Source: a virus. Taken from it: a stretch of 26,772 bases of DNA. The translations under genes were made by a program, and so were the position numbers. Shown here piece by piece: positions 3,061 to 22,080 of this stretch. How positions within the stretch are numbered: the stretch's first letter is position 1; every line of letters starts with the position of its first letter. The DNA is taken from positions 1 through 26,772 of IMG/VR virus record IMGVR_UViG_3300032316_000961. The stretch is one strand, 5' to 3'. The notes under the pieces are model-generated. The model ran no database searches. It saw nothing but the letters and a program-made list of their open reading frames with translations, and was not told the origin of the DNA.

Positions 3061-3465
3061 ATGGCATGCAATGACTGCTCCTCCTGCTACCCACTCTGCG
3101 ACCTGGTCATCAGTTGCGCTCAAGTGGTGTTCGTGACCGTGCCGCCAGCCTACACCGGAGAGACAATCAACCTGCGACTGGTCAACGGCCGCAATCACGT
3201 TGCCATCATCCCTGGGCTTTTTGTGACCTCGGGAGTGGTGGAGTTCAATGCCGTGGATGAGTTGCCGGAAGCCTTTCTGAACCCCTACGGTGGACCGTTC
3301 ACTCTCCAGTTCTTCGACCCGGTTCTCCTGAACCCGATTGAGTTCACCGCCAAGGATGCCAAGCCATACTCCTGCGTTACGTTCCACGTGGAACAGACTA
3401 CTGGGAGCGACACCACCGATGCCATTATCAACGCATTCAATGACACCATTGCGACACCTTACTGA
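3061..3465 (+). CDS. Hypothetical probable structural protein with Cys-rich N-terminus
   Basis: I do not recognise this 134-residue protein. Its N-terminus is unusually cysteine rich (C3, C6, C9, C13 and C19; spacing CxxCxxCxxxC), followed by strand-rich sequence such as QVVFVTVPPAY and INLRLVNGRNHVAII, which looks like a beta-sandwich. It lies between terL and the tail genes and has its own promoter, so a small virion component (head-tail joining or tail) is plausible. The gene contains a 14-base perfect palindrome resembling parS at 3381-3394. Its stop overlaps the next start (TGATG). Confidence 0.7.
   Translation: MACNDCSSCYPLCDLVISCAQVVFVTVPPAYTGETINLRLVNGRNHVAIIPGLFVTSGVVEFNAVDELPEAFLNPYGGPFTLQFFDPVLLNPIEFTAKDAKPYSCVTFHVEQTTGSDTTDAIINAFNDTIATPY
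3380..3395. promoter_or_regulatory. parS-like palindrome (copy 1)
   Basis: GTTCCACGTGGAAC (3381-3394) is a perfect 14-base palindrome matching the core of chromosomal parS sites (consensus near TGTTCCACGTGGAACA), the binding sequence of ParB partition proteins. The outer left base differs (C rather than T). It lies inside a coding region. A second, perfect 16-base copy is at 18382-18397. Confidence 0.5.
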
Positions 3466-3782
3466 TGAATTTACTACTAGTTGCGGTGGCAAGCGCAGAG
3501 GGTGCTGCCTCATTGTGCCTATTGTCACTGATGACGGCTGCGCTATCATTGTTCATCGATTACTGCCTGGATCATCACCCGATTGGAATCTGGTACTTGC
3601 GCTGGCTAAAAAGCCTGCCCGAAAACATCGCAAAGCCTCTCGGTGAGTGCATCTACTGCTCCGGCAGCTGGCTGCACCTGGGCATCGTCTTTCTTGTCTC
3701 TGATTATTCTCTATGCGATTCCTTGATTTCTTTAGGCGCAAACCACCTATTCCTCCGGCTGACCCGTATGCTGAAGCCATAG
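3465..3782 (+). CDS. Small membrane protein with CxxC
   Basis: This 105-residue protein starts at an ATG overlapping the previous stop. It has an N-terminal hydrophobic stretch (residues 1-30), a polar middle (HHPIGIWYLRWLKSLPENIAKPLG), then ECIYCSGSW with C62 and C65 leading into a second hydrophobic segment (about 69-80). The CxxC immediately before a membrane helix resembles small phage and bacterial membrane proteins of unknown role. The last 70 bases overlap the start of the following gene. The function is unknown; possible roles are membrane anchoring of assembly or superinfection exclusion, neither shown by the sequence. Confidence 0.65.
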   Translation: MNLLLVAVASAEGAASLCLLSLMTAALSLFIDYCLDHHPIGIWYLRWLKSLPENIAKPLGECIYCSGSWLHLGIVFLVSDYSLCDSLISLGANHLFLRLTRMLKP

Positions 3783-4462
3783 ACCCGGACAAGCAGTACT
3801 CCAACCCGGAGTATCGCAAGCACTGGGATAGCATCGTCTGGGCATTCAAGTCGGGCGATGTCAACTACTTCTGCTGGAATGATACCATCAAGCTGCCGAT
3901 CGAGCGGATGCACGCAGCCAAAGCCGTGTTTGAAGAGGTCGAGTACCGGCTGAACCCTGACCTGCTCCGTGCTGCTCTTACTAGCATTTATAAGCTGACC
4001 GTTGACCGGAAGCGGTCCGCAGAATCCAGCCTCATTGAGATTGGAAAGGTTGCGGCACTGACCTCGGAAAAGCTGGACATCGCGACCAGTCCGGCCATTG
4101 AATTGAAATTATCCAGCATTTATTACTTCGATGACCGCGAAAACCCATTTGGCTACGATTACCAGTATGCGGCCACTAAAATTGCCAACTGGATGCGAAA
4201 CCAGGATCTCCCTGCTTTTTTTTTGACAAGCCCCAACGCGAAATTTCTGCCGGGTGGGGCCGAATTGCGCAGGATTTCCCAAGACTTTTTCGCAATGATA
4301 AACGGGGAGGCAAACCTCGCGCTGCTGCTGGGGAGTTATCTTTCTACTCTCGACAATTCGGTTCTGCTCGACGCAGATACCGCGAGAACCTTATATTTGC
4401 AGAGGGAGTTGGAACAGACCTTGAGAGACTTGTCACTCAATCAGCCTACACCTACTATCTAG
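3713..4462 (+). CDS. Tail assembly chaperone-like protein, short form
   Basis: This 249-residue protein is read entirely in frame 0. It sits directly upstream of the tape measure gene, where siphoviruses encode tail-assembly chaperones (lambda G/GT type) that coat the tape measure during assembly. The protein is mostly helical in appearance, with no recognisable catalytic motif. At codons 169-170 the message has a run of nine T (4216-4224) followed by a GC-rich stem-loop, the signature of -1 frameshifting, and the -1 frame runs to 4518, just inside the tape measure gene. It starts at an ATG within the 3' end of the upstream membrane protein gene. The role is inferred from position and the frameshift signal rather than sequence similarity. 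Confidence 0.75.
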   Translation: MRFLDFFRRKPPIPPADPYAEAIDPDKQYSNPEYRKHWDSIVWAFKSGDVNYFCWNDTIKLPIERMHAAKAVFEEVEYRLNPDLLRAALTSIYKLTVDRKRSAESSLIEIGKVAALTSEKLDIATSPAIELKLSSIYYFDDRENPFGYDYQYAATKIANWMRNQDLPAFFLTSPNAKFLPGGAELRRISQDFFAMINGEANLALLLGSYLSTLDNSVLLDADTARTLYLQRELEQTLRDLSLNQPTPTI

Positions 4463-4518
4463 CCTACGATCACTGGCTAGAGGCGCAACGCAAAAAAGCC
4501 CAGCAAAGCCATGGCTAA
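3713..4518 (+). CDS. Tail assembly chaperone-like protein, -1 frameshifted long form (predicted)
   Basis: Slippage by -1 at T-TTT-TTT (4216-4222) would join residues 1-170 to 98 residues read in the -1 frame (4222-4518), giving 268 residues. The -1 frame has no ATG, GTG or TTG codon between its previous stop (4177-4179) and its end, so it cannot be started independently by a usual codon. Its last part (DLERLVTQSAYTYYLAYDHW, then LEAQRKKAQQSHG) has good protein character and continues past the frame-0 stop. It ends 8 bases inside the tape measure gene, as GT-type extensions do. The stretch just after the slip is arginine- and glycine-rich, less protein-like, so the exact slip site is not certain. 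Confidence 0.55.
4216..4260 (+). promoter_or_regulatory. Programmed -1 frameshift signal: T tract plus stem-loop
   Basis: The heptamer T-TTT-TTT (4216-4222) is in the correct reading phase for X-XXY-YYZ slippage, within nine consecutive T. After a 7-base spacer, GCCCCA (4230-4235) can pair with TGGGGC (4255-4260), a six-base-pair GC-rich stem at the standard distance for a stimulatory structure. Confidence 0.6.
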
Positions 4519-6934
4519 TTTATCGACCAATCAAATCACGGTTCAGTATGTCATCGATGACAGCCAGATTCGTGGTATTACTAACTCGTTCGGCACCCTT
4601 ACCAAAGAGGAGAAGGAAGCCATTCTGCAAGCCAAAAAGCTGAATGAAGAACTGAAGCGCACCTCATCGGAAGGCTCGAACAACATCAATAAAATGGGCC
4701 AGCAGATGAATGGCCTGGGAGGCGTTGCCAAGTCAGTTGGTGGCCTTATTGCCGGAGCATTCACACTAGGAGCGATAAAGCAGTTCACTCAAGAGGTCAT
4801 CAATACTACGGCCAAGTTTGAAAACTACCAGAGGGTGCTGAACTTCACGGCCGGATCGCAAAAGCAGGGTGCCATGTCGATGGCTTTCCTCCAGCAGACC
4901 AGCCAAAAACTCGGCATTTCTCTGGAGGCTTCTGTCGATGGATTCGTCAAGTTGAGCGGTGCGACAAAGCAGGCAGGTCTGAGCAATGACCAGACCCGGA
5001 AGATTTTTGAAAACGTATCCAAAGCGGTCTCTGCATTCGGGTTGAGTTCGGAAGATGCCAAGGGAGTGTTTTTGGCACTTGGACAAATCATGTCCAAAGG
5101 CACGGTGCAAGCCGAAGAATTGCGCGGCCAGATAGGTGAGCGCATACCGGGTGCTTTCGCAATCGCGGCCAAATCAATCGGAGTAACCGAGCGCGAACTA
5201 AACAAACTGCTGGAGGGTGGCAAAGTGGTATCGAAAGACTTCATTCTGCCGTTCACAGAGCAGTTAGCCAAAGCCACCGCAGAGGCAGGAGGCGCGAATG
5301 GTCTGGCTCAAAACATTGCGAGAATCGGAAATGCGTTTGATGTTTTGCAGACACGGTTGGGCCGTCAATTTCTGCCGCAAATCAACCAGATAGGAGGCGC
5401 ACTGGAGAAGGCTTTATTTTTCGCAAATCAATTCCTGGAGACCTCTGCCGACCGAGAGGCCACCGACAACATGAAAGCCTACGAGTCGGCAACTCGTCAA
5501 GCTGCCAAAGCATCCAACGATGCACTAAAGGCTTCCATCGTCAATGCCAACGCCAACATTCGCGCTCTAGAGGCCGATTATAAACTGCAAGCCGACATCA
5601 TTGCGGCCGATGGTAAGTTGACAGATGCCGAGAAAGAGCAAGCCGATTTACTCGCGGCTAAAATCCTAAAAACTCAGGCTTTCCGCGATGGCCTTTTCGC
5701 TGTTTACCAGCAGCGGCTCAAGGATGAGGAACTGAATAGTCAAAGTGTGGCTACCGCAGAGGAGCAAGCCAAGCTGGATAAGAAGGCTTACGATCAGCGG
5801 CTGAAAATGCTGGACCTGATTCGTCAGATTCAAATCACCGAAGCCGAGATGATTGGCAACCGTGCCGGAGAGTTCGCGGCTGAGCGGAGGTATGCGGAAG
5901 AGGTTTATAACCTTACGGTCGAATACAGCAAGAAAAACATCGGCATATTGGCTGAAGAGGTCAAGCTGAAGAAGTCTCTCCGGGATAGGGCGGTGCAGGA
6001 TTTCAAGACTGCCCAGGCTCTTGAGTTCATGGAAATCAAGGTCGGCTCTGAACGGACTAAAAAGCAGAAGGAGCAGGACGATAAAGAGATGGAAGAACTC
6101 CATAAGGCTGGCGTCGACCGGATGCTGGCATGGTCAAAGCAGTATGAGGCCGACCAAAAATTTCTGCGCGACAAGGCTGTGGAAGAAACTAAAAAGGCCG
6201 AGGAACTAAAGCAGGAGTATATCACGCAGAGTCTTGAACTGGCTCAGACTCTTTTTACCGGCTTTACCAACCTATATAAGCAAGGGCTGGATGCACAACT
6301 CAACAGCATTGAGAAAAGATACGATGAAGAAATAAGACTGGCCGGTGACAACGAGCAGAAGGTAATGGAGTTGAACGAGAAGAAGAGACAAGCGGAAAAG
6401 GAGATCAAGACCAAGCAATTCAGAGCCGACCAGATCAATGCCGTTGCCAACGTGCTTTTCCAATCGGCCCCTCAGATTGTCAAGTATTCAGTTACAGCAC
6501 CACCTCTGGCCGCGATAGTTGCCGCGATTGCAGCTGCACAGACCGGGTTCATATTGGCGCAGCCGGTGCCGGAGTTTGCGAAAGGTACCAGAGGCAAGGC
6601 CCACAAGGGTAAGGCGATAGTCGGTGAGGAGGGCCGCGAACTTGTGGTCACGGAGTCGGGGAAGACCTACCTCACTCCTGGCACTGCGAGTCTGGTGGAT
6701 TTCAAAGAGCGGTCGCACATTTTGCCGGCCGACATTACCGAAAGGATGATGGGCAGCTACTACGCCAACCGCACAGATGCATACAACACCAAGTCCAGCA
6801 ACCAACTGGAGCGCATTGCTGGGCTTCTCGAGAACATGCCGGTTCACGCTCTGGAGTTGAATGAGCGCGGATTTGAGAAATTCATACGGACTCCGAGGCG
6901 TAGCACCAAGATACTGAATGCCAGAAATGGTTAA
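4511..6934 (+). CDS. Tail tape measure protein
   Basis: This 807-residue protein sets tail length and is threaded through the tail tube. Residues about 100-260 match the tape-measure N-terminal domain, with the diagnostic LGQIMSKGTVQAEELRGQIG followed by ERIPGAFAIAAKSIGVTER and LLEGGKVVSKDFILPF. A hydrophobic GGLIAGAFTLGAI lies near residue 80. Residues about 330-640 are long charged coiled coil, and a hydrophobic alanine-rich segment (AAIVAAIAAAQTGFIL) follows. The C-terminal part has EFAKGTRG and GEEGRELVV, typical of these proteins. At roughly 0.15 nm per residue it suggests a tail near 120 nm (inference). A rho-independent terminator follows. Confidence 0.95.
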   Translation: MANLSTNQITVQYVIDDSQIRGITNSFGTLTKEEKEAILQAKKLNEELKRTSSEGSNNINKMGQQMNGLGGVAKSVGGLIAGAFTLGAIKQFTQEVINTTAKFENYQRVLNFTAGSQKQGAMSMAFLQQTSQKLGISLEASVDGFVKLSGATKQAGLSNDQTRKIFENVSKAVSAFGLSSEDAKGVFLALGQIMSKGTVQAEELRGQIGERIPGAFAIAAKSIGVTERELNKLLEGGKVVSKDFILPFTEQLAKATAEAGGANGLAQNIARIGNAFDVLQTRLGRQFLPQINQIGGALEKALFFANQFLETSADREATDNMKAYESATRQAAKASNDALKASIVNANANIRALEADYKLQADIIAADGKLTDAEKEQADLLAAKILKTQAFRDGLFAVYQQRLKDEELNSQSVATAEEQAKLDKKAYDQRLKMLDLIRQIQITEAEMIGNRAGEFAAERRYAEEVYNLTVEYSKKNIGILAEEVKLKKSLRDRAVQDFKTAQALEFMEIKVGSERTKKQKEQDDKEMEELHKAGVDRMLAWSKQYEADQKFLRDKAVEETKKAEELKQEYITQSLELAQTLFTGFTNLYKQGLDAQLNSIEKRYDEEIRLAGDNEQKVMELNEKKRQAEKEIKTKQFRADQINAVANVLFQSAPQIVKYSVTAPPLAAIVAAIAAAQTGFILAQPVPEFAKGTRGKAHKGKAIVGEEGRELVVTESGKTYLTPGTASLVDFKERSHILPADITERMMGSYYANRTDAYNTKSSNQLERIAGLLENMPVHALELNERGFEKFIRTPRRSTKILNARNG

Positions 6935-6974: not shown

Positions 6975-7004
6975 AAGGCCGGAGCAATGCTTCGGTTTTT
7001 TTTT
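6975..7004 (+). terminator. Rho-independent terminator after tape measure gene
   Basis: CCGGAGC (6979-6985), loop AAT, and GCTTCGG (6989-6995) form a seven-pair stem with one G-T pair, followed by nine T (6996-7004). It closes the 3061-6934 block and sits just before the promoter of the next gene. Confidence 0.85.
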
Positions 7005-9405: not shown

Positions 9406-10653
9406 ATGCCTAATACCAGATCTCAACAAGCGACTCTGATTGCTAACAACCTGCCTGATAACACTACGCAGGACATCACACCGCAAGACCTGCGCGATGT
9501 GCTGAACGATGGAACCACCGCAGCTGCATTCGTGGATGACACCAACACCTTCACGGGTACCAACATCTTTGACAACCAAGTCCAAGTTCAGAGTGGTTAC
9601 ATCGATTGCAGCCCTGGCAACATCGAGTTGAATGACACCGCTGCCATTCTACCGGCAAATTCAAGCAGCGTTGCGATTGGAGTGGGGTTGACGGCTGTCA
9701 CTGGAACCCAGAACGTAATAATTGGCGATCAAGCTAATCAGAGCAGTGGAGATCAGAACGTGCTAATTGGCTATCAGGCCGGCAATGTAAACGCTGCCAA
9801 TAATGCGGTAAGCATCGGATATAGTGCTGGCGATAATAACATCGGTGATAAGTTGGTAGCCATAGGGTTCGGCCCGTCCAGTAGCAATCAAGGCGATAAT
9901 TGTGTGGCAATCGGCTACTCACCGCTTAATAGTAATACCAGTGACGAGTGCATAGGCATCGGCACTTTTGCCGGCCAAAGCAATAATGGAACCAACCTGA
10001 TTGCCATAGGTGAACTTGCCGGCCAAAATAATTCATCGGCCGACTGCGTTTTTATCGGAAAGCAAGCCGGCCAGGATAGTGCTGGTAGCAGTTCAGGTGT
10101 TATTGCCATCGGGCTAAATGCTGGATTTGAAAATGACGGGGAACTAAATGTCTACATCGGCCAAGATGCAGGCTTTTCGGCTACAACAGAACAAAGTGTA
10201 GGAGTCGGTTATAGTTCAGGTTCGGCCAATAGTGGCAATAACGTAACATTTATAGGTGCCGGATCAGGTGGTACTAATACGGGCAATGCCGTAGTTGGTG
10301 TTGGCAACTCCTCTGCTAATAACAACACCGGAGATGATGTAATTGGTATAGGTACCAATGCGGCCGGTGGTAACACAGCCGATAATTGCATAGCTATTGG
10401 CACTGCTGCCGGCCAGAATAATACTAGTCCATATGCGATTTTTTTAGGTTATCAGGCCGGGATTGGAGTAACGCAAAGCACTGAAACCGGCCTTGTTGGA
10501 ATAAGGACCGAGTATTTGCCAGTTTTTGCGAATCACAACCTTGCCGAAGCTGCCATTACAACTGGCAACGGTTATATTGCCGGAACCACGTATCTCTACC
10601 GCTGTGAATCATTTGGATCGCATACAAATTACATAGGCTGGGTTTCTCTGTAA
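9406..10653 (+). CDS. Trimeric tail fibre / adhesin with YadA-head-like repeats
   Basis: This 415-residue protein has an N-terminal segment of about 85 residues, probably attachment to the tail, then about 17 repeats of roughly 16 residues (residues 88-360) built on the pattern V-x-I-G-x-x-A-G-x-N-N-x-G. This is the left-handed beta-roll of YadA-head/Hep_Hag domains, which form trimers and bind surfaces. The last 55 residues form a capping domain with LYRCESFGSHTNYIGWVSL. It has no metal-binding motif. A role as a side or tip fibre contacting the host is likely. The repeat region uses more A/T-ending codons (GGT, AAT, ATA) than the flanking genes. Confidence 0.85.
   Translation: MPNTRSQQATLIANNLPDNTTQDITPQDLRDVLNDGTTAAAFVDDTNTFTGTNIFDNQVQVQSGYIDCSPGNIELNDTAAILPANSSSVAIGVGLTAVTGTQNVIIGDQANQSSGDQNVLIGYQAGNVNAANNAVSIGYSAGDNNIGDKLVAIGFGPSSSNQGDNCVAIGYSPLNSNTSDECIGIGTFAGQSNNGTNLIAIGELAGQNNSSADCVFIGKQAGQDSAGSSSGVIAIGLNAGFENDGELNVYIGQDAGFSATTEQSVGVGYSSGSANSGNNVTFIGAGSGGTNTGNAVVGVGNSSANNNTGDDVIGIGTNAAGGNTADNCIAIGTAAGQNNTSPYAIFLGYQAGIGVTQSTETGLVGIRTEYLPVFANHNLAEAAITTGNGYIAGTTYLYRCESFGSHTNYIGWVSL
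9667..10485 (+). repeat. Coding repeats, about 17 units of about 48 bases
   Basis: Degenerate tandem repeats encode the IGxxAGxNNxG beta-roll. The IG dipeptides fall at about residues 91, 106, 121, 137, 153, 169, 185, 201, 217, 235, 251, 283, 314, 331 and on, with the period close to 16 and occasional 15, 17 or 18. Confidence 0.8.
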
Positions 10654-13574: not shown

Positions 13575-15392
13575 ATGAACGAAGAGTTAATCGGGGTAAT
13601 CCTTGACATCGTCAACGACCCGGAGTATCGCAACGGGGAGACTGAATTTCTCGAAAAGATTCGGGAGATTGCAGAGCAGCTTGCTCCGCACTTTGACGAG
13701 GAATACCCCGAGGAACTCTTACGCCATAATCACCCAGGTGAGGAAGAGTGGGCGAAAGCCTACCGGAAGCATCGCTGGACTGCCGTCTCCATGATGGTAA
13801 CCGGCCGGATTAAGACAACGTTGTCCAAGATTCAGCAGGCTGATGACTTTCGCATTAAGATTAATGATGACCCGGCAATGACCGGCATCATCGCGGAGAA
13901 CAGCTTTAAGAAATACCTTTTCGAGGATCAGCCTAAATTCAAGTCTCTCGAGGCTTGGGCATTTCAGATTTTTCTCGACACCTATCTGAAGGATGCCAAT
14001 GCGGTGGTTGTGGTTCTGCCTGACCTTTCCAAGTTCTGCTACTCCGGGAACCCGGAGGACATCGACTGGAGCCGGCCTTACCCTCAGATTTATGAATCTG
14101 AAGACATTCACTACCACACGGAGTCTGGGTGCATCGTCCGGGTGAAAGATTACAAAGGACCAGGTGCGGATGGATTCATAAAAAAGTGGGATCAGTTCCT
14201 GGCGATAAGTAAAGAGGGGCTGGTGTTGTGCCGGGCCTATCGGGAGTATGTGGCTGACGAAAATGCGTTTAAGGCTTTCCCGGTCGAGTATCAGTTCGAT
14301 AAGCTGCCGGTCTTCGTGGCCGGAAATGTGCTTTATGAACTGGAGCAGGGCCAGCCAGTGTATGAGTCGGTCCTTCAGCCATGCGTGCCGGCATTGAATG
14401 AGATGATCTACCGGCACTCGGAAATCATCGTCAACTGGGCATTACACGGTAATCCACAGCGGTGGCAGGTGGTCGGGAAGAGGTGCAAGACTTGCAACGG
14501 CACCGGCAAAATTGAAGACCGGAAGAGTTCTACCATTGCCACATGTCGGACCTGCAATGGCTCTGGCTGCGGTGAATCGGAAGGCTCACCATTTAAGGTC
14601 ATCGAGGTCAACATCCAGCAGCCCAATGCGCTGAATCCGAATGTTGCCAACGTTCCGGTGCCTCCGGCCGGCTATGTGGAGCGCGACACCAAGGCTCTCG
14701 AAGCGCAACAGAAGGACATCGATGAGCAGGCGTACAAGGCTCTGGCTGCGGTCGGGCTTGAGTTACTTGCCCAGGTGCCGGCTGCGCAAAGTGGCATTGC
14801 AAAGCAATACGACCGGAAGGAAATCAACACCTTCTTTTTCAAGGTCGCGGTTCAGATTGAGACTATCATGGTTCAGGTGGCCGAGGCCGAGTTCTACCAG
14901 CGATACAATGCGCTGGGCATCTACCCTCTGCTGACACCAGAGCGGAAAATGGAGGCCATGCCGAAAATCACGATACCATCGGATTTTGACATTTTGACCA
15001 TCGAGATTGTCGGAGAGCAGCTGAAGAAGGCCAAGGATGGCAAGTTTAGCCCGGTGATAACCTACGGCCTCGAGAGCGACTACGTGCAGAAACTATATGG
15101 CGAGGATTCGTACCAGCTGTACATCCTGAAAATGCTGAACATCCATGATCCTCTGCCCTTTTTGACCGTCAACGAAAAGACGGTGTTGAAAGAGTCGGGT
15201 GGCTGCACTGAGGAGGATTACATCCTCAGCAATTACCTACCATCGTTTATCGCAGAGTTGACCTATTCGGACCCGACATGGAAAAAGAAGCCGATGGAGG
15301 AGCAGAGGGCCGACCTGGTCCAGATGGCGAAGGATAAGCAGCAGCAGGTGCGAGCCGGATTAATACCCGTGTCTGAGCGATTATTGGTATGA
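13575..15392 (+). CDS. Portal protein with DnaJ-like zinc motifs
   Basis: This 605-residue protein is the probable portal, the dodecameric ring through which DNA enters the head. Support comes from length, an acidic helical N-terminus, a central RVKDYKGPGADGFIKKW-type region, the helical QQKDIDEQAYKALAAVGLEL segment and its place immediately before a MuF-like gene, overlapping it by ATGA. Between residues 304 and 331 it carries CKTCNGTG and CRTCNGSG, two CxxCxGxG motifs as in DnaJ zinc-binding domains, unexpected in a portal. No portal-family motif is diagnostic by eye, so the call combines content and position. Confidence 0.8.
   Translation: MNEELIGVILDIVNDPEYRNGETEFLEKIREIAEQLAPHFDEEYPEELLRHNHPGEEEWAKAYRKHRWTAVSMMVTGRIKTTLSKIQQADDFRIKINDDPAMTGIIAENSFKKYLFEDQPKFKSLEAWAFQIFLDTYLKDANAVVVVLPDLSKFCYSGNPEDIDWSRPYPQIYESEDIHYHTESGCIVRVKDYKGPGADGFIKKWDQFLAISKEGLVLCRAYREYVADENAFKAFPVEYQFDKLPVFVAGNVLYELEQGQPVYESVLQPCVPALNEMIYRHSEIIVNWALHGNPQRWQVVGKRCKTCNGTGKIEDRKSSTIATCRTCNGSGCGESEGSPFKVIEVNIQQPNALNPNVANVPVPPAGYVERDTKALEAQQKDIDEQAYKALAAVGLELLAQVPAAQSGIAKQYDRKEINTFFFKVAVQIETIMVQVAEAEFYQRYNALGIYPLLTPERKMEAMPKITIPSDFDILTIEIVGEQLKKAKDGKFSPVITYGLESDYVQKLYGEDSYQLYILKMLNIHDPLPFLTVNEKTVLKESGGCTEEDYILSNYLPSFIAELTYSDPTWKKKPMEEQRADLVQMAKDKQQQVRAGLIPVSERLLV
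14484..14567 (+). other. Paired CxxCxGxG motifs within the portal gene
   Basis: Residues 304-311 (CKTCNGTG, bases 14484-14507) and 324-331 (CRTCNGSG, bases 14544-14567) form one likely four-cysteine zinc site separated by 12 residues (KIEDRKSSTIAT). DnaJ proteins use four such motifs, so this is half a DnaJ-type set. Confidence 0.8.
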
Positions 15393-16481: not shown

Positions 16482-17519
16482 ATGTCCTATACTTGCCTCC
16501 AAGACTTCATCGGAATGCCGCTCTGCGCCACGGAGGAGCCGGCCTCTGGCGTGTACATTACCGACTACCCGGGCATCAGCACCGAGTTGGCCGACAAGGT
16601 TGCCTCCGCTGACCAGATTACCTTTGCCGGTGTTTGGAAATCAGTCCAGCGGCAGGCTTATCAGAAGATGCTCACCGATGTCCAGAAGGCCATCCGGGAG
16701 TCGGCCAACGCGAGGATTGACCAGGTACTTTTTCAGACCCAGAAGCCCTTTGTCCAGCAATGGCAGCAGATTCAGACTCTGGCACCCGATACGGTGTTCC
16801 GAGGTGTGCTGGCATCGGTAAGCGGAACTAAGTACATGGGGCTGCGTGTCAAGTCTTTCTGGATTTACAATGCCGGCTCAAGTACGGTAAACGTGGATGT
16901 GAACATCTACCAAAGCCAAAACGCGGAACTGGTGTATACCAAAAACGTAGACCTGACTCCGGGCATGAACACCGTGCCGGTAAATCAGCTTTTTTATTCG
17001 GATTTTGACAAAATCAACCTGCTTCTTCTGGTGGACTGCACCAACCTGACCACGTTGGGCGGCAACTTTATCGACTGGGCCTTGCTGCCATTCGACATCG
17101 AGTGCGCGACTCAGTGGTCGCTGTGGAATGTCAACACCGTGAACATGCTTCCGGTTCAGGCTCCTCTGACATATGGCCTCGGTGATACTTGGACACAGCA
17201 GCAGCAGTCCGGCATTTATTGGGATGCAGAGTTGGTGTGCAGTCTGGATTTGTTCGTGTGTAGCCAGCGGTTCAACCTTCTGGATGCCTGGGCGAGGCTG
17301 CTCTGCTCTGAGTTGCTTCGATTCAAGCTGGCAAGCCAGAGGGTAAACTACTTCACGCAGAGCAACCGCGAAATCACCGAGCGCAATCAGGCTACCTTTC
17401 TCCAGGAGTATCAGGATGCCCTTTCCGGTTGGGCGCAGCAACTCAACCTGCGTGGCGAGGGCATGTGCTTTAACTGCGAGGACTCCGCAGTTATGGGTAC
17501 TCGGATGCGCTTACCTTGA
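16482..17519 (+). CDS. Hypothetical probable virion protein
   Basis: From ATG 16482, two bases after the preceding stop, this is 345 residues; an upstream start at 16419 lies inside the preceding gene and is unlikely. The N-terminus contains MSYTCLQDFIGMPLC. Residues about 70-130 look helical, then a beta-rich module (VKSFWIYNAGSSTVNVDVNI) with a carbohydrate-binding or beta-sandwich look, then a helical C-terminus. No family is recognised. Its place after the portal and MuF genes suggests a head, head-tail or decoration protein. It ends overlapping the minus-strand galactosyltransferase gene tail to tail by 29 bases. Confidence 0.7.
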   Translation: MSYTCLQDFIGMPLCATEEPASGVYITDYPGISTELADKVASADQITFAGVWKSVQRQAYQKMLTDVQKAIRESANARIDQVLFQTQKPFVQQWQQIQTLAPDTVFRGVLASVSGTKYMGLRVKSFWIYNAGSSTVNVDVNIYQSQNAELVYTKNVDLTPGMNTVPVNQLFYSDFDKINLLLLVDCTNLTTLGGNFIDWALLPFDIECATQWSLWNVNTVNMLPVQAPLTYGLGDTWTQQQQSGIYWDAELVCSLDLFVCSQRFNLLDAWARLLCSELLRFKLASQRVNYFTQSNREITERNQATFLQEYQDALSGWAQQLNLRGEGMCFNCEDSAVMGTRMRLP

Positions 17520-18120
17520 TGTGAATGTAGCCCTCCTGAGTGTTGGTGATGCTTATAATCTGGGCAATCGAATCTAAATTTGAAAGCCCGGACTCCCAGT
17601 TGATGCCGGATTTAAGTGTCTCTACGTTGCGGTGGTAGAGTTCATGGGTGCCATTGTGCTGATGCTTCAGGCTGCGGAAGCGGCCGTTAACCCGAGTGAT
17701 GGTGAGTTTCTTCTGCCGGCATCTGGCGAGTAGGTCATCGTCTTCGGCACCCCAGCCCCAGAACTCATTGCTGAATCCGTTGACTTGGTGAAAGGCCGAC
17801 CGGGTAAAACCGGTTACGCCACCAAAGTAATCCGGGTAAGGCCGCAGGTAGTTGAACTGACTGGCGGCACCGGCAAAGTGCGTGGCATCTGCGGTGATGG
17901 TGTAGTCGCAGTTTATCGGCACCATGTCTACATCGTGCATAATTAGGTAGTCCTCTTTAGCGTAATCGGCTCCGATGTTGCAGAGCAGCCCTCTATTGAA
18001 GGGCATGATGTCGGACTGCTCGACCAGAATCACCTTGCCCAGATTTTTGAGTCGCGGAAACAGCACCGTAAAGTGGTGCCAGCGGTTTCGGTATGGGATT
18101 ATGAATGCCGTGCTTTCCAT
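17491..18120 (-). CDS. GT7-family beta-1,4-galactosyltransferase-like enzyme
   Basis: This 209-residue protein has the ordered motifs of beta-1,4-galactosyltransferases: IPYRNR (8-13), FNRGLLCNIGA (41-51), the metal-binding HDVDMVP (DVD at 63-65), YFGGVTGFTR (98-107) and NGFSNEFWGWGAEDDDL (114-130), then LKHQHN near 151-156. These form a nucleotide-sugar binding GT-A fold with Mn2+. The family is best known from animals and also occurs in bacteria and viruses. The bacterial length is shorter than animal versions because no Golgi anchor is present. It is the last gene of the minus operon. The donor sugar cannot be told from sequence; UDP-Gal or UDP-GalNAc/GlcNAc are family donors. Confidence 0.88.
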   Translation of the reverse strand: MESTAFIIPYRNRWHHFTVLFPRLKNLGKVILVEQSDIMPFNRGLLCNIGADYAKEDYLIMHDVDMVPINCDYTITADATHFAGAASQFNYLRPYPDYFGGVTGFTRSAFHQVNGFSNEFWGWGAEDDDLLARCRQKKLTITRVNGRFRSLKHQHNGTHELYHRNVETLKSGINWESGLSNLDSIAQIISITNTQEGYIHIKVSASEYP

Positions 18121-18976: not shown

Positions 18977-19232
18977 AAATCGTCTCGTAAAATGATAACT
19001 CTAATTGTAACTCGCGCAGCTTGGCGGTGTGGTAATACTTGGCTTTGGCCCGGACCTGCTTTGGCGTATAGCGGTCATGGATGCTACCGAGTACCGCTAC
19101 CTTCTGGCCTGATTCGATGAGGTGAGATTCATCTATCATGGATTGCTTTTGCAGGTCGAGTTCGTGAATCCGACTCAGCAGCTTTTCCATTGATTTCTTG
19201 ACCCGATACTGGGCCGATTGGATGTTATACAT
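18951..19232 (-). CDS. Small coiled-coil hypothetical protein
   Basis: This 93-residue protein is dominated by helix (KKSMEKLLSRIHELDLQKQS and LRELQLELSFYETIYEALS). It overlaps the upstream glycosyltransferase stop by 8 bases and the downstream gene start by 26. I see no known family. It may be a binding partner or chaperone within the operon, which is only an inference from position. Confidence 0.6.
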   Translation of the reverse strand: MYNIQSAQYRVKKSMEKLLSRIHELDLQKQSMIDESHLIESGQKVAVLGSIHDRYTPKQVRAKAKYYHTAKLRELQLELSFYETIYEALSKGG

Positions 19233-19890
19233 GGCTTACGTGTCTGTTTTGGCCGATATGCCGGACATATCCGGCCGTGAGTGTTGCTGCCTTCATTCGC
19301 GCTCTGGCGTATATTTTTGCGATTTGCGACTCTGCGAGCCATGGCTCCTTCGGGTTCCAAGTGGTCACCGGACCGTAGCCATTGGGGAAGAGTCGCTGAT
19401 AGTCGCTGAGTCTCTTCAGGCCGGGGTTATGGCTGAATCCTGGCCATCGTCCACCTGCGTAGGTAGGTGAGAGAAACTGCCACATGACATTACCTTGAGT
19501 CTTGCGAATCGGCCCGGTAGCCGGGTGACCGTTACGGTCATTGGGAGACCGGAGCCACACCTGAATCACTTGTGGATTCTCGGCCAGCACTTGGAGAGAT
19601 GCCTTGCCAAACCCGGTGCGGAAGAACTCCCAATCGTCCTCAAGAAACATGATATACTCGTTCTGGACCTGGGAGTACAGAAAGTCTATACTTCCGACCT
19701 GACCGCGATGGGTGCCATCGAAAAAGGTTATCATCGGAAACTCCTGCCGGAAAGCATCTGGTATCGGATGGCCGGAGTCATCGTTGACAATGAATCGGTC
19801 ATAAGGCAGGTCATAATGCTCAAGGAAACTCTTGAGCGTTCGGGCCAGTAAATCCCAGCGACCGCAGCTGGTTAGGATGACATCAGTCAT
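19225..19890 (-). CDS. Family 2-like glycosyltransferase
   Basis: This 221-residue protein starts MTDVILTSCGRWDLLARTLK, the opening of a GT-A family 2 enzyme, with the nucleotide-binding NDDSG (36-40) and the metal-binding MFLEDDWEFF (EDD 84-86). Downstream NPGLKRLSDYQRLFPN is compatible with an acceptor region. It is short for GT2 and has no membrane helix. The gene is in the minus operon directly after a tiny membrane protein with an 8-base overlap. The sugar and acceptor are unknown. Confidence 0.8.
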   Translation of the reverse strand: MTDVILTSCGRWDLLARTLKSFLEHYDLPYDRFIVNDDSGHPIPDAFRQEFPMITFFDGTHRGQVGSIDFLYSQVQNEYIMFLEDDWEFFRTGFGKASLQVLAENPQVIQVWLRSPNDRNGHPATGPIRKTQGNVMWQFLSPTYAGGRWPGFSHNPGLKRLSDYQRLFPNGYGPVTTWNPKEPWLAESQIAKIYARARMKAATLTAGYVRHIGQNRHVSHV

Positions 19891-20969: not shown

Positions 20970-21421
20970 CCTACTTTACGGACCTATGCGACCAGATCAA
21001 CGCCAACTTTGGCGGCAACGTGAAAATCTATGGCGAAGGTCACGAGGTTATCACTCCCGATGGCACCGCTTTTTGGTCCATCGCGGAAAACGAACCATGC
21101 GCAGTCGATGACAACTATGGTCTGGTACTTTTTTGGGTGCGCAACTCTGCCGATGCAACGGACCAGATATTGGGAGGACGCAAAACCCGGGTAGCCAGAC
21201 GGGTGCGGTTTACGCTGGCCGGGAATAGTAGCATAAGTAATGCAGAGCAGAGACTGGCGAGCATTGTGAACGGAATCAAAGAACTCGAGTATATCAGCAG
21301 CGACTTTGCGACCAAGGCAATCGCCAGCAATTATTTCGCTATCGAGGAGCAGAACTTTGAGACTTACTTTTTCACTATCGACTTTCTGGCTCAAGAAAAA
21401 ATAGACTGCCCTGAATGCTGA
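20966..21421 (+). CDS. Possible tail terminator / completion protein
   Basis: This 151-residue protein is compact alpha/beta with the sequence ARRVRFTLAGNSSISNAEQR and NYFAIEEQNFETYFFTIDFL. Position directly after a gp10-like gene is where head-tail joining or tail terminator proteins lie. Its C-terminus ends in DCPEC, a CxxC that recurs in other virion proteins here. It is coupled by ATGA at its start and its stop overlaps the GT25 start. The role is inferred from order. Confidence 0.5.
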   Translation: MTYFTDLCDQINANFGGNVKIYGEGHEVITPDGTAFWSIAENEPCAVDDNYGLVLFWVRNSADATDQILGGRKTRVARRVRFTLAGNSSISNAEQRLASIVNGIKELEYISSDFATKAIASNYFAIEEQNFETYFFTIDFLAQEKIDCPEC

Positions 21422-22080
21422 CACTACCAGTCGATTCAATCTATTGCATCACTCTGTCCGCACGGGGATTCGGTCGGAGGAAACTCATCGAGAAACACCT
21501 TGCCGAGGTTGGGGGCATGCAGGACAAGCACGGGAAGCCGTTGCACTATGTGTACGGCATAAATGGCACAAATGCCGATCACCGGGTGGACAACAGCGTG
21601 AAAATGGCGAATCGCAGGGGCAGGATGTCAGCCGGTGAGATTGGGTGCTTTGCCAGCCATCGGATTGTCTGGAAGCTATTTTTGGAAACCAAAGCCGAGA
21701 CATGCATGGTGTTGGAAGACGATTTCCGCTTCGGCCAGAAAGCCGAGCAGTTTTTCAGCTTGTGGAATCGATTCCCCAAAGACTGGGATTACGTTAATTT
21801 CGGGTATATCACAAATACAAAAAGCATTCACAATGACCTGACCCGAGTGCATGTGGAGCCGTTTATCAATCTGTTTACCGGATGCGGAATGTGGCTTACC
21901 CATGCCTATGCTATCAATCGCCATGCAGCCGAGGTGTTTCTCGTTAACACCGAGGTTCAGTACGGTGGCATCGATTGGCAACTGACCGGCATCCAGAATA
22001 AGGTCAAGAGTTATGGTTTCTCCGGCAATGCCGTCATCTCGCAAGCCAAAATACCAAGTCAAATAATTCACACTCAATAA
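21415..22080 (+). CDS. Glycosyltransferase family 25
   Basis: This 221-residue protein has the GT25 hallmark SAGEIGCFASH (residues 72-82) followed by the metal-binding MVLEDDFRFG (LEDD 100-103) and an N-terminal strand IYCITLSARGFGRRKLIEKHL. GT25 enzymes transfer galactose or related sugars to lipooligosaccharide or protein. It is on the plus strand in the connector-capsid operon, overlapping the previous gene by 7 bases, and not in the minus glycosyltransferase operon. This placement suggests coexpression with capsid proteins. Donor and acceptor cannot be told from sequence. Confidence 0.9.
   Translation: MLTLPVDSIYCITLSARGFGRRKLIEKHLAEVGGMQDKHGKPLHYVYGINGTNADHRVDNSVKMANRRGRMSAGEIGCFASHRIVWKLFLETKAETCMVLEDDFRFGQKAEQFFSLWNRFPKDWDYVNFGYITNTKSIHNDLTRVHVEPFINLFTGCGMWLTHAYAINRHAAEVFLVNTEVQYGGIDWQLTGIQNKVKSYGFSGNAVISQAKIPSQIIHTQ

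Follow-up and report, generated by a model that had tools for sequence, protein, structure and literature searches.

A conserved nine-base run and an open -1 frame before the tape-measure gene point to a slippage-made, G/GT-type tail assembly chaperone in a family of uncultured phages

A stretch of viral DNA of 26,772 nucleotides (IMG/VR virus record IMGVR_UViG_3300032316_000961, positions 1 to 26,772; henceforth referred to as the window) very probably encodes a G/GT-type tail assembly chaperone whose second product is made by slippage. As far as sequences can establish it, both frames of the gene encode protein and are conserved, the -1 frame lacks its own start codon, the slip run is kept and the gene adjoins the tape-measure gene, and from these features we infer that GT is produced, in what amount and for what job. 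In the proposed scheme the gene would give rise to two proteins: ordinary expression would yield G (249 aa), and one slip at a run of nine T, in a minority of events, would yield GT, a predicted fusion of 268 aa in which 170 aa of G are followed by 98 aa read from the -1 frame. If phage lambda is a guide, the role of G would be to cover the tape-measure protein, and the tail-tube protein would be brought in by the -1 domain of GT. Overall, we regard the transition as real, conserved and programmed, and as belonging to a system of known kind in which the slip signal is a new variant.

In the window, the frame-0 (G-like) gene occupies positions 3713-4462 of the plus strand, and residues 171-249 of its product are dual-coded. 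The slip run lies at 4216-4224 (plus strand), where T_TTT_TTT (4216-4222) matches the reading phase of the frame-0 gene, as a reading of the letters alone (henceforth referred to as the sequence-only reading) had pointed out, and is overlapped by a second heptamer, T_TTT_TTG, at 4219-4225. Since 0.41 T9 runs are expected per shuffled window on both strands, such a run is not rare by itself. The open -1 frame spans 4180-4518, stop included, and holds no ATG, GTG or TTG, which bears out the view that it can be reached only by slippage; its C-terminal, T-like domain (4222-4518, plus strand) comprises 98 aa and the stop codon, and its predicted product includes the segment SAYTYYLAYDHWLEAQR. The adjoining gene (4511-6934, plus strand) encodes the tape-measure protein (Pfam PF20155 TMP_3, E 2.3e-35; PHROG tail length tape measure), so that the -1 frame ends 8 nt inside it. 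The same overlap, to which the sequence-only reading had drawn attention, is found in lambda, where the annotated T runs to 10549 and H begins at 10542. A small gene at 3465-3782 (105 aa, with the motif ECIYCSGSW) shares ~70 nt, in another frame, with the beginning of the chaperone gene, and similar ORFs overlap the chaperone start in distant relatives (L008-L016).

Relatives were collected by scanning IMG/VR and one genome set; after removal of duplicates, 184 unique loci remained, which were clustered at 50% identity into 40 lineages. The relatives are thus numerous and uncultured, and in the alignment used for fold prediction the other 51 members are 18-35% identical to the window protein. 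The few cellular matches were all to metagenome-assembled genomes (MAGs) of Bacteroidota, and a search of 395 Bacteroidota genomes returned nothing beyond the MAG already found; Bacteroidota are likely hosts of the family, and presumptive ones for the window itself. In every one of the 40 lineages the -1 frame stays open across the last part of frame 0 and a canonical slippery heptamer lies in frame, and this, together with the coding selection described below, upholds the earlier proposal of a programmed -1 transition before the tape-measure gene. The run is exactly nine bases long in 36 lineages, nine or ten in 37 and below nine in three. It is a T9 in the main phase (xxT TTT TTT TTx) in 32 lineages, a T9 in another phase (e.g. 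GAG TTT TTT TTT ATG) in two and an A9 in two, in one of which (L145) it lies about nine codons upstream; the exceptions are T10 in one lineage, T8 in one and T6 in two, the last reading T_TTT_TTC in the L109 clade and T_TTT_TTA in L339. Within the window's clade and within the large clades the run length is invariant. The comparison of T tracts among relatives that had been suggested does not refute the transition: some slippery run is kept throughout, and its loss with both frames retained was not seen. Sequencing error is an unlikely source of the constant T9, which has equal length in many independent contigs and also occurs between genes. In one locus (L056, positions 411-1250) the G and T domains are joined in one frame after an internal junction, which represents either a natural recombinant or an assembly chimera.

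Frameshifting in tail chaperones is a standard example of ribosomal recoding, and a ribosomal heptamer requires 7 bases. The reading that we tentatively prefer is a shared mechanism, in which the ribosome would slip by -1 on the T_TTT_TTT and T_TTT_TTG heptamers and RNA polymerase would slip on the nine-base run, where one extra U would lead to the identical 268-aa protein and so add to the ribosomal share. With a probability slightly below even, polymerase slippage supplies a substantial part of GT in this large and unnamed family, probably of Bacteroidota phages. If true, the ratio of a tail assembly chaperone would be fixed partly or wholly by transcription and not by ribosomal frameshifting only, and a family that keeps its run length, and not the heptamer alone, at nine would let one ask directly whether phages of some hosts set G:GT via RNA polymerase.

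The evidence for a contribution of RNA polymerase comes from run length, which is exactly nine in 36 of the 40 lineages across three settings of base and phase. Two T follow the heptamer in 33 of the 36 main-phase lineages, and where the codon after the heptamer encodes Leu it is TTR in every case (29 of 29 lineages), the TTR share of Leu codons being 41% in these phages and 18% in the window. We then took the other genes of these loci (262 after redundancy was removed, 225 kb) and compared their runs with 100 shuffles. A-runs of at least nine were absent from these genes against ~16-17 expected (the lowest of the 100 shuffles had 8), while A8 occurred 17 times against 23 expected and A7 70 times against 70. 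In-frame heptamers in 7-base runs were not avoided (A, 32 against 27 expected; T, 8 against 9). Because runs of at least nine A are missing and 7-base heptamers are not avoided, the pattern points to run length, and hence to RNA-polymerase slippage as a possible partner of the ribosome. The corresponding figures for T, 0 runs of at least nine against ~1.5 expected, are too few to carry weight, and T8 was found once against 6.5 expected. T9 was found five times between genes, so assembly bias is not the cause of the missing runs. Across the coding sequence of loci L002-L261 the depletion of A-runs takes the form of a sharp step between eight and nine. Together, the near-constant length of nine and the avoidance of long runs elsewhere hint at slippage by RNA polymerase as well.

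Several features of the data limit this claim. Every T9 holds an in-frame heptamer, and where a heptamer falls within Phe-Phe-Phe or Lys-Lys-Lys codons, the run is bound to be nine bases long; the extra TT can equally be explained by the second overlapping heptamer. The loss of long A-runs could have other causes, such as replication slippage or the sliding of ribosomes on poly-A, which one published paper reportedly treats. Early stops in the +1 frame, which are expected with polymerase slippage, gave no significant signal by mean distance (p 0.15).

It is quite possible, if not our preferred reading, that the ribosome acts alone. All of the GT would then come from tRNA-Phe slipping in tandem by -1 on T_TTT_TTT, as well as on T_TTT_TTG a codon further on, and the run would reach nine bases only because two heptamers overlap or because codons for Phe-Phe-Phe or Lys-Lys-Lys adjoin. 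The presence of the canonical heptamer in all lineages, including the three whose runs fall below nine (T_TTT_TTC and T_TTT_TTA with six T in two of them, T8 in the third), speaks for the ribosome, and known tail chaperones use ribosomal frameshifting, some of them without stimulators (PMC5009743). Ribosomal slippage by itself, however, leaves unexplained why 37 of the 40 runs are nine or longer and why the other genes lack long runs yet hold in-frame heptamers.

Programmed transcriptional slippage, as in Shigella mxiE/spa13, Thermus dnaX, Citrobacter tssM1 and IS elements, resembles the present case in that an A or T run of at least nine stands at a conserved frame transition (PMC1088944, PMC4256274, PMC5009743) and in that long runs are avoided in other genes, a likeness which holds here for A-runs, T-runs being too few to tell. 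It was for runs of 9A/9T that Baranov 2005 studied slippage (PMC1088944), and runs of nine are known to yield transcripts carrying additional bases (PMC5009743). Our runs differ in that all of them hold a ribosomal heptamer and that a few lineages fall below nine, and no report of transcriptional slippage for a tail chaperone was found in the literature searched. We consider it improbable that RNA polymerase acts alone, such that a fixed share of transcripts with an extra U would give GT by ordinary translation, as in mxiE, dnaX and tssM. The exact nine in most lineages, the avoidance of such runs elsewhere and the absence of downstream RNA structure would fit this explanation, but the T6 lineages (the L109 clade and L339) keep the -1 frame and the heptamer, and polymerase slippage would not serve them; the T8 lineage also counts against it.

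The absence of downstream structure bears on a stem-loop that the sequence-only reading had made part of the signal. The complementary segments GCCCCA (4230-4235) and TGGGGC (4255-4260; plus strand) are indeed present, but a role in the signal is unsupported. The 60 nt downstream of the run fold no better than their shuffles (z +0.48), one stem pair is broken in two (L003 and L004) of the three relatives at 96% identity, and over 27 lineages the mean z of the downstream region was 0.06, with no value below -2. The stem does not belong to the conserved signal, and the stem-loop was rejected as a stimulator. An Rfam scan of 4000-4700 gave no match.

We also considered whether the -1 domain could be expressed without any slip, either as a gene in its own right that begins at an unusual start codon or through a phase-variable genomic switch in which length variants of the run fuse the frames. 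Homopolymers are hypervariable in some genomes, and both domains are fused in L056. However, several lineages have a -1 stop codon directly adjoining the run; in those the -1 frame opens exactly there and leaves no upstream start possible, and the run length is constant within the window's clade and the large clades; we therefore regard both versions as very unlikely.

Substitution patterns indicate that the -1 frame is under coding selection. In the large clade, rates at frame-0 codon positions 1/2/3 changed from 0.065/0.028/0.254 upstream of the run to 0.040/0.084/0.148 where the frames overlap, and the same kind of shift was seen among the close relatives of the window; at the level of sequence, this is the signature of two coding frames. 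With the frame-0 protein held fixed, the -1 frame of the window stays open in 1.3% of synonymous recodings, and the product over 27 lineages is ~10^-44, a nominal value as the lineages are not fully independent. The -1 domain can be aligned across divergent lineages and is recognisably homologous in most of them, most weakly in a few of the most distant. The caveat that the R/G-rich start of the -1 frame looks less protein-like, raised at the outset, is answered by this selection, and the notion that the frame is open by chance, with the 249-aa protein as sole product, can be set aside as scarcely credible given an open frame in every lineage, a conserved domain and dual-coding substitutions, the R/G-rich start being a point in its favour.

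With respect to identity, the frame-0 protein had no Pfam or PDB-sequence match and only single weak matches to unknowns in PHROG; tblastn of isolate phages with three family members and hhalign against lambda gpG gave no match. A first fold from nine sequences was poor and was replaced by one from a 52-sequence alignment, for which the AlphaFold2 model reached a mean pLDDT of 85.7; no match better than E 0.1 was found for it in PDB and BFVD. The suggestion of a divergent, tail-chaperone-like family is supported. In 24 of 25 lineages tested, a large ORF has its start no more than 210 nt from the -1 stop, and in four of ten lineages scanned the downstream ORF has Pfam tape-measure or minor-tail matches. 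A gene for a major tail protein was not recognised beside the chaperone gene, where the upstream ORFs at 3061-3465 and 3465-3782 have no convincing family match in Pfam or PHROG.

The likeness to lambda G/GT, itself made by ribosomal -1 frameshift, lies in the position before the tape-measure gene, the start-less -1 extension, the slippery heptamer and the lack of an evident stimulator. Sequence similarity, by contrast, is undetectable, the run is here nearly always nine bases long, and the distance from the slip to the frame-0 stop is 237 nt in the window (~190-250 nt in the relatives compared) compared with 26-36 nt on average in sets of annotated cases (PMC10885494). This long distance implies that G and GT carry alternative C-terminal domains rather than differing by a simple extension. 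Position, architecture and the -1 fusion are the anatomy from which a protein working like G/GT is read, a likeness of anatomy and not of demonstrated descent. Among known tail chaperones, too, those of different phages resemble one another little (PMC5009743), so the missing family match weakens the claim of descent and not that of function. Overall, the proteins seem to form a new family of G/GT-type chaperones, known from uncultured phages, with a long dual-coded overlap and no Pfam, PHROG, isolate, PDB or BFVD match; it is an example of two frames coding together over a long stretch and giving alternative C-termini. Its markers (YFDE..., FF[LF] and the slip run) and its alignment can help to annotate tail chaperones in uncultured phages, whose second product is missed by gene callers.

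Some further features of the window were recorded. A second T9 lies at 6996-7004, between the end of the tape-measure gene (6934) and the start of the next gene (7020), with no hairpin by a simple terminator scan. The gene order over 1658-24672 seems unusual, with terminase, chaperone and tape-measure genes first and a weak portal match at 13575-15392. Finally, three glycosyltransferase genes lie inside the virion gene region, at 17491-18120, 19225-19890 (minus strand) and 21415-22080 (plus strand), the Pfam families represented there being Glyco_transf_7C, Glycos_transf_2 and Glyco_transf_25.
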